DNA from: Planctomycetota bacterium
GTDB taxonomy: Bacteria > Planctomycetota > Planctomycetia > Pirellulales > Pirellulaceae
Reading direction: 5' to 3'
NCBI GenBank assembly: GCA_027622275.1
Contig: JAQBZB010000030.1
Coordinates: 1 to 47,751, forward strand
DNA length: 47,751 nt
This document shows positions 43,167 to 47,751 of this stretch, piece after piece (position 1 is the first letter of the stretch; every line of letters starts with the position of its first letter). The translations under genes were made by a program, and so were the position numbers. The notes below the pieces were generated by a model. It was not told the origin of the DNA. It saw nothing but the letters and a program-made list of their open reading frames with translations, and made no database searches.

Positions 43167-43613
43167 TTCGATACGTTCCGTTCGTATCTACTGTCGTGGC
43201 CCCACCCACGTCGCCTACCAGCGGAACCGCTACGACGGAGGCCCCTGCGATGGGCGTGTCCGTTGAGGAATAAGTCACCGTCCCTGTAATACTGCCCCCC
43301 GCGATTGCGTCGAAATCTACAACCCCGCTTTCGCCATCGCGAGCGGTCACCAAGTCTGGTGAAACTAGCAATCCGTTGTCGAAACTAAACCGAAACTCGC
43401 CCGCCACCACTTCCGGGATGACAAAGGAGCCATCAACATTGAGAGACGTGGAATACACTTCATTAGAGATTGTGTTTACCGCTCTGATCGTGGCACCGCC
43501 TAGTGTCACCGCTAAATCCGCCGAGTTGATCCACCCAACGATCGACGTTCCAACCGCTGCCGTGGCGCGGTCGATCTCCATCCAGATCAGCTCTTCCATC
43601 GATGCGGGTTGAT
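43166..43613 (-). pseudogene. Fragment of a carboxypeptidase regulatory-like (Ig-like) domain protein
   Basis: The minus strand encodes GTSIVGWINSADLAVTLGG, then TRDG-like turns and SITGTVTYSSTDTPIAGASV, then TTVDTNGTYRIEW. These are CarboxypepD_reg-type beta-sandwich repeats of a secreted protein. The 5' end is cut by the IS66 end at 43614 and the 3' end stops at the CACTCGA joint. The open frame runs back into the IS66 element, but that part is only the antisense of tnpA. Confidence 0.6.
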
Positions 43614-43694
43614 GTAAGCGCGCACCAGCACCACTCTTGACGAGTGCTTTAGCCTGGCGGGTTTCTTTCACTCTGGCTCGAAGGAGGTCCGCTG

Positions 43695-44114
43695 ATGTCT
43701 CGTGTTCCCGATCCTGCGCTGCGATTGCAGTGGCAACGGCGTTTGCGTAAGTTTCATGCCTTTCACGGCTCGGTGCGGCAGTTCTGCTATGACGAAGAGG
43801 TCTCCGTGGCCTCATTCTATCAGTGGCGAACGAAGCTGACCGAGGTGCGTAACTCGACCAAGAACAAAACCAACGCCGCCCTACAGAACACCATCGCCGC
43901 GCACTTCGTCCCCCTGCAACTCGCGGAACCGACGCCGCGCGACGCGTCACCAACTCAGGCTGCCATCGTGCTGCCCGGAGGCACACGCATCGAACTTCCC
44001 AGCGAGGACTCGCCCCTCATCCAGGCCGTCATCCGCTGGGTCATGCACGAAGATGCAAAGCTCCTCGACGAGCGTCGCGAACTCGCTGTCGACAAGGCAG
44101 GAGGATTGCGATGA
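43695..44114 (+). CDS. tnpA: IS66 accessory protein TnpA (orf1)
   Basis: 139 residues. The N-terminal half is helix-turn-helix-like (FHAFHGSVRQFCYDEEVSVASFYQWRTKL). A later stretch AAIVLPGGTRIELP is typical of IS66 orf1 products, needed for transposition in a way not well defined. AAGGAGGTCC lies 7 bases before the ATG. The stop overlaps the tnpB start (ATGA), coupling their translation. No palindromic insertion was found in this gene. Confidence 0.88.
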   Translation: MSRVPDPALRLQWQRRLRKFHAFHGSVRQFCYDEEVSVASFYQWRTKLTEVRNSTKNKTNAALQNTIAAHFVPLQLAEPTPRDASPTQAAIVLPGGTRIELPSEDSPLIQAVIRWVMHEDAKLLDERRELAVDKAGGLR

Positions 44115-44482
44115 CCGCTTTGCCCACACACCAACCGATCTTCCTCTGCACCACGCCCACCGATATGCGCAAGAGCTTCTGCGGATTGACCGGCATCATC
44201 CGCCAAGCGTTTGGACGCGAGCCGACCGATGGCAGCTTGTTCTTGTTCGTCAATCGTAAACGCGATTCGATCAAGATCTTGTATTGGGATCGCGACGGCT
44301 TGGCGATCTGGTACAAGCCGACCAACCTCCGGTCGGTGCCCGAAGCCGGCACGTTCGAACAACCTCGCGCAGCAGGCGATCAAGCGGCGCTGCAAATCGA
44401 TGCCACGCAACTGGCGATGATTCTGGGCGGTGTCTCGTTGCAGTCAGCCCAGCGCAGAAAACGCTATCAACAAGTCGCTTGA
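44111..44482 (+). CDS. tnpB: IS66 accessory protein TnpB (orf2), with an in-frame 24-bp hairpin insertion
   Basis: 123 residues of the IS66 orf2 family: TTPTDMRKSFCGLTGIIRQAFGREP, LFLFVNRKRDSIKILYWDRDGLAIWYK, then EAGTFEQP. In the family WYKR-LEAGTF is continuous. Here PTNLRSVP stands between WYK and EAGTF, encoded by the 24-base hairpin element at 44319-44342. The frame is kept, so the protein may still work with an 8-residue loop added. Confidence 0.85.
   Translation: MTALPTHQPIFLCTTPTDMRKSFCGLTGIIRQAFGREPTDGSLFLFVNRKRDSIKILYWDRDGLAIWYKPTNLRSVPEAGTFEQPRAAGDQAALQIDATQLAMILGGVSLQSAQRRKRYQQVA
44319..44342 (-). repeat. IS66-embedded palindromic element, copy 1 (in frame in tnpB)
   Basis: Begins CGACCAACC and ends GGTCGGTGCCCG on the plus strand, the reverse orientation relative to most copies. 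It differs from copy 2 at one of 24 positions when reversed. It adds 8 codons to tnpB. Confidence 0.75.
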
Positions 44483-44562
44483 TGTCGAAGCGAAACGCGT
44501 CCCGCGGACGCGGACAACTCTTTCACAAAACAACACCGATCGTCGTCTCAAAACACTCCACA

Positions 44563-44617
44563 CAAGACAAGTGCTCGGTCGCTCGACGTGGACCAAAACA
44601 CTTGTCTTGCTTTTTTT
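44563..44617 (+). terminator. Terminator-like hairpin with T-run between tnpB and tnpC
   Basis: CAAGACAAGTG at 44563-44573 pairs exactly with CACTTGTCTTG at 44599-44609, followed by C and seven T at 44611-44617. The loop is 25 bases. It would end the tnpAB transcript. A promoter-like TTGCGC (44640) and TACACT (44662), 16 bases apart, then precede tnpC. Confidence 0.55.
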
Positions 44618-45036
44618 GTCGAGATTGTTGAAAGAGGACTTGCGCGATTTGGAAATGGCGATACACTAGGTGGCCATGAGTGATGCACTGGCCATGCCTG
44701 ATGACTTGCAAGCCTGCCAAACGCTGGTCGAGCAACTCGCCATCACCGTGGCTGAGCTAGAGCTTAAGAACGCCGACCTCATCGACAAGCATCTCGCACA
44801 GCAACTCGAAATCGCGTACTTGATCAAGCTCGCCTTTCATCGTCGCAGCGAGCGTTATCTTGACGATCCAAATCAACTCAAGCTCGACTTGGGAAACAGC
44901 GACGAAGCTCACGACGCGGCCGAGGGTCTTCAAGACGCGAAGCAAGAACAAGCTGCCGCCGATGAACTCATCATCGCCGAGCACATTCGCAAGAAGCAGG
45001 CGAAGGCCAAGAAACCACGCGATGAACAGCTTCCCG

Positions 45037-45060
45037 CGGGCACCGACCGTAGGTTGGTCG
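45037..45060 (+). repeat. IS66-embedded palindromic element, copy 2
   Basis: CGGGCACCGACC, GTA, then GGTTGGTCG: 24 bases. It lies between the codons for EQLP and LPRYEVEAP of tnpC and shifts the frame. Stem ACCGACC/GGTTGGT. Confidence 0.75.
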
Positions 45061-45297
45061 TTGCCGCGTTACGAAGTCGAAGCGCCAGCCACGGACGAAC
45101 AGCAGCACTGCGAAACACACGGCGAGCGTAAAATCATCGGCTACGACGAAGTAGAAACGCTCGAGTATGTCCGCCCGCAGTTGAAAGTCCGTGTCACGAA
45201 GTATCCGAAGTTCGCTTGTCCCAACGCGCCGGAGTGTGGCGTGACGAGTCCTGAACGAGCGGTCGGCTTGGTGGAAGGGAATCGCTATGACACGTCG

Positions 45298-45328
45298 CGA
45301 CCACCGGCATCCATGCCGGCGGTGCCCG
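45298..45328 (-). repeat. IS66-embedded palindromic element, copy 3
   Basis: CGACCACCGGCAT, CC, then ATGCCGGCGGTGCCCG: 31 bases, the longest copy, in reverse orientation. It follows the codons for GNRYDTS of tnpC and precedes AEIITGKYG. Confidence 0.7.
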
Positions 45329-45357
45329 CGCCGAGATCATCACTGGCAAGTACGGCT

Positions 45358-45383
45358 CGGGCACCGCCGCGTAGCGGTGGTCG
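45358..45383 (+). repeat. IS66-embedded palindromic element, copy 4
   Basis: CGGGCACCGC, CGCGTA, then GCGGTGGTCG: 26 bases, only 29 bases from copy 3 and in the opposite orientation. It puts a TAG at 45372-45374 into the tnpC frame, just before LPVYREQDW. Confidence 0.75.
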
Positions 45384-45729
45384 TTGCCGGTCTATCGTGA
45401 GCAAGATTGGTTCGCCAGCAGTGGCTGGACACCCTCGCACAGCACGTTGCTGAACATCATGATGCAGGCCGCTTTGCTGATCGCACCGCTGATGAAATAC
45501 TTCGCCGACGGTGTTCGCGAAGACACGGTGATTGGCACGGATGACACGGGCGTGACGCTGCTGATGCCGAAAGATATTCCGCCCATCGATCCGGATGACT
45601 CGCGCAGTCGGCGGATTCATGAAGTGTTGACGGCGGCTCGCGAGAAAGGCGAGCCGAGCGTCGGCGCAAAGATGTGGGCTTATCGCGGTGTGTATGTGCG
45701 GTTGAACGTGTTCGACTTTACGGTCAGTC

Positions 45730-45756
45730 CGGGCACCGACGCGAAGCAGTTGGTCG
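45730..45756 (+). repeat. IS66-embedded palindromic element, copy 5
   Basis: CGGGCACCGACGC, GAA, then GCAGTTGGTCG: 27 bases with one extra base in the right arm. It lies between FDFTVS and the GPDEFLIASGY region of tnpC and shifts the frame. Confidence 0.75.
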
Positions 45757-46221
45757 CGTGATGGGCCGGACGAGTTCTTGATCGCGAGCGGTTACGCCGG
45801 CACGATCATGGCGGATTGTTATTCGGGTTACCAAGGGATCACGCTGCGCAGTGACGGTTCGATGCAGCGCGGTGCCTGTAACTCGCACGCCCGTCGCAAG
45901 ATCTTTGATGCTCGTTCGAATCATCCCCTGGTGGCGAGTGTGTTGTTGGCGATGTATCAGGAGCTGTACGACATCGAGGATCGCGGCAAGTTGCTGAGCA
46001 ACGAGGCGCGGCAGGAGCTTCGTCAGCGGGAGGCGACCGTGGTGTGGACACGGATGCGAGCTTACCTGAACAGTCCTGTGGTGAAGAACTTATTACCGAA
46101 GGAAGCGATGGGAAAGGCAGTGGCTTACTTGAACAATCAGTGGGACGCCCTGCAGTTGTATCTCACCAGTGGCGGCATCCCCATCGACAACAACGACGCC
46201 GAGCAGTTGATGAAGCAAGTT

Positions 46222-46247
46222 CGGGCACCGACGCTCGGCGTTGGTCG
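46222..46247 (+). repeat. IS66-embedded palindromic element, copy 6 (in frame in tnpC)
   Basis: CGGGCACCGACGC, TCG, then GCGTTGGTCG: 26 bases. It encodes RAPTLGVG between EQLMKQV and RGRKNWLFIGS. In typical IS66 TnpC this junction reads KQVALGRKNWLF, so the copy adds about 8 residues without breaking the frame. Confidence 0.7.
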
Positions 46248-46579
46248 TGGTCGGAAGAACTGGCTATTCATTGGGAGCATCGCGGCGGGTGGGCGCGCGG
46301 CGGATCTGATGACGTTGGTGAGCAGTGCGCTGCGTAACGACTTGGACGTCTGTTCGTATGTGAAGGGCGTGTTGGACGCACTTCTATCGGGCAGCACGGA
46401 CTACGAGCAACTTCGTCCGGACGTCTGGGCTCAAATGCACCCGGAACAAATCCGCGAATACCGCCGCGAAGAGCGTCGCGACCGCGCCGACCGCAAGCAA
46501 TTCCGCCGAGCCCTCCGCCGCCAAGCCCAACGCCAAGCCGCCCGCTAGCCGGGCGACCCTGTCGCTGGTGTGCGCTTAC

Positions 46580-47423
46580 GCATAATACGGATTGCAAAGA
46601 ATGTGGGTGTGCCAGAACTGGTATGCAGAACTGGCCCTTGACGCGTGCCGAAGTATCATCCGTCTGTTGATAAGCAGTCGAAGTAAGTCCGGCCTGGACG
46701 ATGTCGTTGAACTCTTGCTCGAACGCAGTCGCCGTCTTCGTCAGAATATTCGACACCGACCAACGCTTCGCGTCGGTGCCCGCCAGTGGACACCTGGACC
46801 TCGAAGTTCAACAGCAACTCTCGAATCTTTGGCTCGCTCATGTTGCCGCAATACTTCAGCGACAAGATCAAGGCCCGCAAGTCCGCGCCGAAGTCTCCTT
46901 GATCGTGGCCCTCGGGGAGTGCTCCGCGAAGGAAGCGTGTTTCCTGCGCCGAGAAGTAGACATGTCGCGTGAAGCGTGTGTTACGCGGCTTGATCTCGAT
47001 GTCTTGGACGATGACCGTTTCGTCTTCCACACGCACCGCATCGGGCGGCAGCGTGGCGGGATCAACGGGACACTCGACTTCTTCGTGAATCGGCACGTCG
47101 TTGAACGAGCGACCGTCGCGTGCGGCGCGATGCTTCTTGTCGCATTTGCGTCGCTGCTGTTCGGAGGAATGATTCGAGTTGAGGGGAGCAGCTTGGTCGT
47201 CATCTTGTTGGGAATTGGCAGTAGTGTTGTCTTTCTTCTTCTGTTCGAGTTGCTTCCTCAGTCGCTGCACTTCCTCGGCGAGTTCGTGCTTATCGGCACT
47301 GAGCGCCTCGACGACATTCAGCAGCTTCTCCACGGCCTCTTCCGCCTCGACGGGCAACGCCCCCGCCCTAGCCAGCAACGCTTCCACCTGTTTCAAAACT
47401 GATTCGACATTCACACTGCTCAT
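46580..47423 (-). pseudogene. tnpC: Second IS66-family transposase (TnpC type), frameshifted and truncated
   Basis: From the ATG at 47423 (GGAG just upstream) the minus strand encodes an N-terminal coiled coil (SADKHELAEEVQRLRKQLEQ), a basic linker, then VECPVDPATLPPDAVRVED, RFTRHVYFSAQETRFLRG, SLKYCGNMSEPKIREL and NFEVQVSTG. At the hairpin element 46757-46782 the frame shifts to SNILTKTATAFEQEF and YQQTDDTSARVKGQF, the start of the catalytic domain. A 13-bp tandem duplication (CAGAACTGG at 46613 and 46626) shifts it again to FWHTHILCNPYY, and it is cut by the other IS66 end at 46579. No tnpA or tnpB accompanies it, so it is of a different IS66 subgroup. Confidence 0.82.
46757..46782 (-). repeat. 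IS66-embedded palindromic element, copy 7 (in the second transposase)
   Basis: Read on the minus strand it is CGGGCACCGACGC, GAA, then GCGTTGGTCG: 26 bases, almost the same as copies 5 and 6. It interrupts the second IS66 transposase between QVSTG and SNILTKTA. Confidence 0.75.
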
Positions 47424-47464
47424 AGCTCCATCATACGCAACCCAGCAAACTACGAGATGCTAGC

Positions 47465-47647
47465 GATGGGAAGATACCAGAGAATCTCGCTTTTTGGGAT
47501 TCCGTCCGCGGCGAGTACCGCGCTTATTTTCGTGATTTCGATGAAGACGGCATTCGAGGTATCAAGACAGCGACTTCGAAGGACTTCGTGAAATGGAACA
47601 AACCCCAGTGGCTCGTCTTGGCCTTGATCGGAGTCTTGCGCAAGTAA
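47465..47647 (+). pseudogene. Fragment of a probable glycoside hydrolase family-32-like gene
   Basis: A short open stretch reads DGKIPENLAFWDSVRGEYRA, then YFRDFDEDGIRGIKTATSKD, then FVKWNKPQWL. This resembles the conserved blade of five-bladed-propeller glycoside hydrolases, where an arriving visitor-type sentence 'ATSKDFVxW' is common. It has no start and ends at a TAA inside the repeat that follows. The second IS66 relic abuts it on the left. Family assignment is tentative. Confidence 0.4.
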
Positions 47648-47711
47648 CCCGAAGCGTAAGCGAGGACGGCGCTGGTTTCCGCCTCAAATCCTCGCTCACG
47701 CTTCGGGTTAC
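47644..47711. repeat. Long inverted repeat (GTAACCCGAAGCGT family)
   Basis: The arm 47644-47665 (GTAACCCGAAGCGT, then AGCGAGG) matches the complement of 47690-47711 at 21 of 22 positions, with a 24-base spacer. It interrupts the glycoside-hydrolase-like fragment and supplies its stop codon. It is probably another dispersed palindromic family of this genome. Confidence 0.7.
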
Positions 47712-47751
47712 GATGGTCGAGTTGCTAGCATTTTTCCCAAAGTTCCGATCA

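Follow-up and report, generated by a model that had tools for sequence, protein, structure and literature searches.

Seven short hairpins lie between positions 44319 and 46782 of a 47,751-nucleotide (nt) stretch, hereafter the window, from contig JAQBZB010000030.1 of a Planctomycetota bacterium of the family Pirellulaceae (assembly GCA_027622275.1). With moderate confidence, we interpret them as copies of a tiny, non-autonomous mobile element found in planctomycetes (in Pirellulales and their relatives), comparable to the repetitive extragenic palindromic (REP) elements and the Rickettsia palindromic elements, that would travel as a folded DNA strand and be moved in trans. Copies of this element are present at sites that are empty in relatives, replace target bases without duplicating any, favour the anticodon arm when they lie in tRNA genes, occur nested within one another, are enriched in mobile DNA and are patchily distributed.

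Searching the 9.78 Mb genome to which the window belongs with a strict pattern (CGGGCACCG-N8-22-TGGTCG) gave 68 matches, which represent 67 distinct elements because one was read twice, compared with none for the same pattern reversed; these counts, together with the stem covariation described below, rule out an origin as chance palindromes. A covariance model (R2), with which 150 of 14,978 first-look candidates were scored, gave 79 matches at E < 0.01 in the same genome. All seven copies listed in the original prediction, which had been made from the letters of the window, are present, and neither the strict pattern nor the covariance model detects any other in the rest of the window. The region 43400-47751 has no match up to E=1 among the Rfam covariance models. 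Across the family, the element is 23-34 nt long. A scan of 84,980 genomes for the exact core of the element returned 87 stretches, 80 of which were listed; these 80 come from 17 assemblies, and their titles name a planctomycete in 79 cases and just a bacterium in the remaining one (L124). Two of 2.9 million viral contigs contain the exact core, in one case within an array of 25 tRNA genes, and a second exact core had no match in the viral contigs. Two congeners of the host bacterium (G001 and G002) yield 5 and 13 strict matches, part of them chance-like, and in complete genomes convincing copies are scarce, too few for a comparison of replication strands.

Each hairpin consists of an unpaired 5-nt foot (CGGGC), an outer stem (ACCG.../...TGGT), an inner stem of 2-7 pairs that is variable yet complementary, and an unpaired tail (CG), with a GNA or GNNA loop in 47 of the 67 strict copies. 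The covariation of the stems that had been noticed in the seven copies is borne out: in 28 distinct strict matches, a set in which the outer bases are fixed by the selection of sequences and the fourth stem pair is G.T by definition of the pattern, 95% of the cells are paired and 30 double-sided changes are observed, compared with 9.8 +/- 2.0 in shuffles and 1-6 after sliding of the partner column. C-G-closed GNA triloops form very stable DNA minihairpins, and the strand complementary to the CGGGC strand has no GNA-type loop. When folded as DNA, the CGGGC strand is more stable than its complement in all three pairs compared (-4.8/-3.7, -6.0/-4.1 and -6.1/-4.4 kcal/mol). Because both the loop signature and the more stable fold reside on one strand, the active form would be that strand, as DNA, folded on itself.

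Six of the seven hairpins in the window, denoted E1 to E6, reside in one IS66 element. E1 (44319..44342, minus strand, 24 nt) lies in orf2, which encodes TnpB (44111..44482, plus strand; Pfam TnpB_IS66, 2.3e-28), and replaces 6 bp, the frame remaining open. The transposase (TnpC) gene (44670..46548, plus strand) is split by the other five, each of which replaces 5 bp: E2 (45037..45060, plus strand, 24 nt) with a frameshift, E3 (45298..45328, minus strand, 31 nt) with a long stem, E4 (45358..45383, plus strand, 26 nt) with a GTA triloop and, as read by eye, a TAG stop at 45372 that shares the frame of the downstream coding sequence, E5 (45730..45756, plus strand, 27 nt) with a frameshift in the DDE region, and E6 (46222..46247, plus strand, 26 nt) in frame (+21). 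Every segment longer than 30 nt between these copies retains one open frame, and no lesion was seen in the transposase gene apart from the elements. Either the insertions occurred in a recent burst, or selection on the carrier persisted for a while.

The sites of all six IS66 copies are empty in homologues, as determined by a protein-anchored comparison with 12 homologue loci, the remaining loci having given no or implausible pairings. The empty site measures 6 nt for E1 in 11 of the 12 loci (the twelfth has no sensible pairing), 5 nt for E5 in 10 (none in the other two) and 5 nt for E6 in 11. For E2, it measures 5 nt in 4 of 12, the others being unaligned or implausible, and for E3 and E4 5 nt in a single locus, L094, the other homologues being mis-paired at E3 probably because only 29 nt separate E3 from E4. 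Thus, the family sequence is continuous where the elements interrupt it, as had been anticipated, and the homologues lack the insert rather than carrying the same residues at these places. The proposed comparison with insert-free IS66 copies defined the target sites; the target duplications that it might have revealed were not found, bases being lost instead.

The same outcome is seen in other hosts. In IS91 elements, the empty site is 5 nt in 5/5 paired homologues at one site and 6 nt in 5/5 at another; at a third, no homologue was paired. Among group II introns, 5 nt are missing in 8/8, 4/4 and 1/1 paired loci at three sites, the latter two belonging to paralogues from the same genome (C87 and C175), each of which is empty at the site occupied in the other. 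At a fourth intron site (C174), the empty site is 5 nt in three of four loci and 7 nt in one, a fifth site has 6 nt in its single homologue, and two more are without an empty homologue. Target duplications of 3, 4, 5, 6 and 7 nt were found at 0, 1, 0, 0 and 0 of 62 sites, respectively, compared with 1.6, 1.2, 0.1, 0.03 and 0 expected from shuffles. The element takes the place of target bases, mostly five or six and sometimes four or seven, without duplication. The lost pentamer shows A at position 4 in 15 of 25 cases (p 7e-6) and a pyrimidine at position 5 in 22 of 25 (p 4e-5), a set that includes ten non-tRNA pentamers taken by hand from one homologue per site; on the right flank of the elements, GCG is favoured.

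Genes for tRNAs are a frequent target. By best intact match, 43 of 53 elements from 20 loci map inside tRNA genes, and the other 10 have no tRNA match. For site statistics, the 33 of the 43 with flank identity of at least 0.80 (it reaches 1.00) were merged by tRNA, position and strand into 25 distinct sites, which are not all necessarily independent, neighbouring positions of one tRNA being counted separately. Thirteen of these sites start at canonical positions 27-34, that is, in the anticodon arm (8/72 expected, p = 6e-7), and 12 of the 13 have the orientation of the tRNA; of the full set of 25, 17 are on the same strand as the tRNA and 8 on the opposite one. The anticodon of the host tRNA is often destroyed, and there is one tRNA-Met in which the element stands in place of the very 7-nt anticodon loop. 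The anticodon site of tRNA-Lys(UUU) is filled in four genomes of four genera (L105:3510-3535, L107:2090-2115, L301:1421-1448 and L302:1433-1460), with three different hairpin apices, of which two are 5-nt loops, and with paired stems throughout; this site may go back to an ancient insertion held in common, the folding of which was kept up, or may have been struck repeatedly.

Arrays of 6-35 tRNA genes were observed in planctomycete genomes and one viral contig (L014, L007, L124, L130, L132, L135, L139, L169, L104-L107, L298, L301-L303, L306 and L312), and in other genera tRNA arrays commonly harbour the element; an HNH endonuclease gene is present in all three arrays checked (L007, L124 and L169). 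In eight of nine hand-picked low-copy genomes (G008, G015, G030, G044, G057, G088, G137 and G178, the exception being G083), a copy lies in a tRNA gene, or between such genes, within an array or a small cluster; G008 has a second copy outside. A single tRNA array holds 5 of the 8 strict matches of G203, and one in G204 holds 4 of the 6 of that genome. In the congener G001, one of three examined copies is in an array and another has a solitary tRNA gene within 500 bp; none of five examined copies in G002 is in an array. In the genome of the window, 14 of 68 elements have a recognised tRNA gene within 400 bp.

Palindromes form another class of sites. In other Pirellulales (loci L112-L191), a second palindrome family, CCCTCTC-CCNNNGG-GAGAGGG, often houses the element at its apex; in unoccupied palindromes the apex measures 7 nt and usually reads CCNNNGG, and among the distinct palindromes in these loci 25 are filled and 38 are empty. 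Copies of the element nested within one another were recognised by eye; on the assumption of a triloop at the outer apex, the loss amounts to five bases in L199, L200, L201 and L204, six in L206 and L208, and four in L202.

The element had been thought to be confined to IS66 transposition genes. In fact, most copies are elsewhere, in tRNA arrays, IS91, group II introns and other insertion sequences, and three IS66 loci with long open reading frames (ORFs) in the same genome (C453, C222 and C486) are not among the element sites. For the part of the copies whose hosts are reported here, the classification not being exhaustive, the genome of the window has IS66 copies in the window and in C541, and IS91 copies in C48, C363 and C477, to which similarity to an IS91 homologue adds C17, C33, C141, C186, C189 and C319. 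Other hosts are IS21, IS110, a DDE transposase and group II intron genes, and some copies adjoin ordinary genes (DHDPS, arginine decarboxylase, DUF1501 and GNAT). Besides HNH, transposase, integrase and reverse transcriptase families account for 4/13 and 11/17 of the Pfam families listed at element sites, compared with 0/25 of those listed for control ORFs (150 ORFs from 17 loci, unmatched in contig position). This control was reduced from 174 ORFs in 20 loci by dropping two loci that are open in all six frames (12 ORFs), L266 (10 ORFs) and 2 ORFs of L265. In two IS91 copies (C477 and C363), a 26-nt element is read through in frame; similarly, a protein-coding palindrome is seen at L038:851-876, where a 26-nt element, having replaced 5 bp, leaves a 522-amino-acid IS91-type transposase ORF uninterrupted and adds 7 codons to it. 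Several IS91 copies have identical insertions and shared flanks, which shows that the carrier multiplied after insertion.

The seventh hairpin in the window, E7 (46757..46782, minus strand, 26 nt), lies in a different, transposase-like ORF (46656..47423, minus strand). The assignment of this ORF to IS66 in the original prediction did not hold: it has no Pfam match and shows 31-34% identity to five plasmid records, three of which are annotated 'transposase'. At 47644-47711, there is a 23-nt inverted repeat (GTAACCCGAAGCGTAAGCGAGGA, 96% complementary) with a 22-nt spacer, which is unrelated to the element.

Under the scenario that we favour, the intermediate would be a single strand, 5'-CGGGC...CG-3', folded on itself and recognised through its foot and loop by a trans-acting nuclease or transposase. 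This enzyme would cut the target DNA on either side of about five bases, and new copies would be tolerated chiefly where loss of function is cheap, which could produce the enrichment in mobile DNA. Several observations weigh against mobility of this kind. No moving enzyme was found at 50 Y1 transposase loci or by clustering of the proteins encoded near elements in three genomes; the sole cluster that emerged as a candidate common enzyme is the group II intron reverse transcriptase, which is taken to be a host because it is itself interrupted by elements in places. The length of the loss is not fixed: six bases are missing at E1, at one IS91 site and at one intron site, the 25 tRNA sites comprise 15 with five, 7 with six, 2 with four and 1 with seven, and 21 of the 25 filled palindromes lost six bases and 4 lost five. 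The preference for A in the lost pentamer comes from the ten hand-taken sites (10/10), the tRNA sites by themselves showing 5/15. A hairpin loop as the general target is ruled out by the tRNA arrays, where masked pentamers fall in predicted loops less often than the background (0.21 vs 0.41; 0.31 vs 0.40), whereas outside the arrays they do so more often (0.60 vs 0.45; 0.64 vs 0.47); nevertheless, the anticodon arm and the apices of palindromes are favoured sites, as are nested copies. With regard to folding, the energy of single copies is only 1.0-1.2 standard deviations below shuffles for three top strands, the best DNA fold of the 24-mer lies in a shifted register, and the G.T wobble varies among the 24 copies outside the strict pattern (17 G.T and 7 A.T), in which the foot and tail are variable as well. 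Finally, mobility is read from the comparison of sequences, some copies spread with their carrier, and template switches that correct palindromes could also yield covarying stems.

The last point leads to an alternative that we regard as rather unlikely, namely that there is no dedicated enzyme and that, during stalled replication or break repair, a hairpin already in place is copied into short gaps by template switching with the help of microhomology. Target loss of variable length, the lack of duplication, nested palindromes and the complementarity of variable inner stems all fit such a process. It does not readily explain why the CGGGC foot and the CG tail recur across genomes, given that variants would fold too (24 non-strict copies were seen against 161 strict ones, most loci having been fetched by strict patterns), nor the position-specific base preference in the lost pentamer, of which the A component comes mainly from the hand-taken non-tRNA sites.

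It is unlikely that the hairpin belongs to the REP elements and, as is supposed for these, owes its movement to a RAYT or class 3 Y1 (HUH) transposase, in spite of the matching size, unpaired foot, strand asymmetry and the nesting and clustering of copies. Hairpins with a CnGA foot flank the class 3 Y1 proteins, which occur mainly in Planctomycetes, Acidobacteria and Proteobacteria, and the reverse strand of the element reads CCGA where G follows it (35 of 62 sites). However, the element flanks none of the 50 Y1_Tnp loci scanned (20 of 21 from the genome of the window and 30 of 66 from six others, with up to 1.5 kb per side and less at contig ends), and the GTAG/GTGG foot is absent. A relaxed pattern matched at three of these loci: the matches in L054 and L244 are dissimilar, and that at L219:125-144 is a true relative, at a distance from the gene of more than 1 kb. 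Next to several Y1 genes (L042-L044, L047, L060, L239 and L247, on both sides in L042, L044 and L060) stand other hairpins, of the types AGCCTGGGSCAACGSCCCAGGTT, GGACGGGTCTCC and GCCCGGCGTNTTACGCCGGGT. Moreover, we know of no IS200/IS605-type insertion that loses target bases.

There is a slim chance that the host or a rival element writes hairpins into transposons, introns and anti-defence tRNA arrays and so silences them, and it is just as improbable that such writing, by a reaction replacing about five bases of folded DNA in mobile elements and their tRNA arrays, constitutes a bacterial mutational defence against mobile DNA. The enrichment in insertion sequences, introns and tRNA arrays would be expected in that case, as would six copies in one IS66 element whose transposase gene is otherwise without visible lesion, the anticodon arms are often struck, and tRNA arrays are regarded as a putative antidefence system in mycobacteria (PMC12803027). 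Yet the enrichment is explained equally by neutral tolerance, palindromic repeats house many of the copies in other genomes, and the in-frame and shared IS91 insertions mark carriers that multiplied. Introns or byp-like bypassed inserts that the cell removes or ignores would agree with the intact flanking gene parts (flank identity up to 1.00; open frames), but can be practically discarded since, the target bases being lost, exact removal by splicing or bypass could not restore the gene or its frame, as in the tRNA-Met with the replaced anticodon loop, and since both insertion strands are used (17 and 8 of the 25 tRNA sites).

To our knowledge, the swap of a short target segment for a 24-nt hairpin is an insertion outcome not known for any bacterial element, and no description of this element or of such a replacement was found in the literature searched, of which subscription papers were largely outside. 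Replacement of target bases is a clear biochemical signature to seek and makes testable an old question, the movement of orphan palindromic repeats; it is also of interest that a selfish element should be frequent in tRNA arrays, which are thought to provide plasmids and phages with anti-defence.

Rickettsia palindromic elements insert within genes, and the likeness to them that was pointed out at the outset is borne out by a dispersed, folding element that is inserted into genes and has covarying stems. As far as the available text of PMC3733652 goes, they and the CGTC-tagged repeats are likewise small palindromes with no known transposase; the element differs from that superfamily in its ends (CGGGC/CG, the reverse strand starting with CGAC), its phylum, the replacement of about five bases and the preference for the tRNA anticodon arm. 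REP elements and REPtrons (RAYT, Y1 HUH), as portrayed in the portions available of PMC3733652 and PMC6006769, are similar in being hairpins of 20-40 nt with an unpaired foot and strand asymmetry, and some REP families are inserted inside other palindromes. Unlike these mainly intergenic elements, the present one has many copies inside tRNA and transposase genes (and, in other genomes, palindromic repeats), replaces target bases, flanks none of the Y1 loci scanned and has the CGGGC foot and CG tail in strict copies, the feet of non-strict variants not being GTAG/GTGG either; as to the CnGA foot of class 3 Y1 hairpins, the reverse strand reads CCGA at the 35 of 62 sites mentioned above. The mitochondrial hairpin elements known as GC clusters are mobile, and some, in Allomyces, are without flanking duplications, as here (PMC2800124, in its accessible part); the planctomycete element is set apart by its bacterial hosts, defined target-base loss and residence in tRNA genes and transposons. 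It is also distinct from miniature inverted-repeat transposable elements, in that target site duplications at the 62 sites do not exceed shuffles, and from tRNA introns, group introns and byp elements, in that its removal would not restore the gene. Because the defining tags and associations of REP and Rickettsia palindromic elements fail as far as tested, we assign the element to neither of the two and place it with them among the small mobile palindromes.

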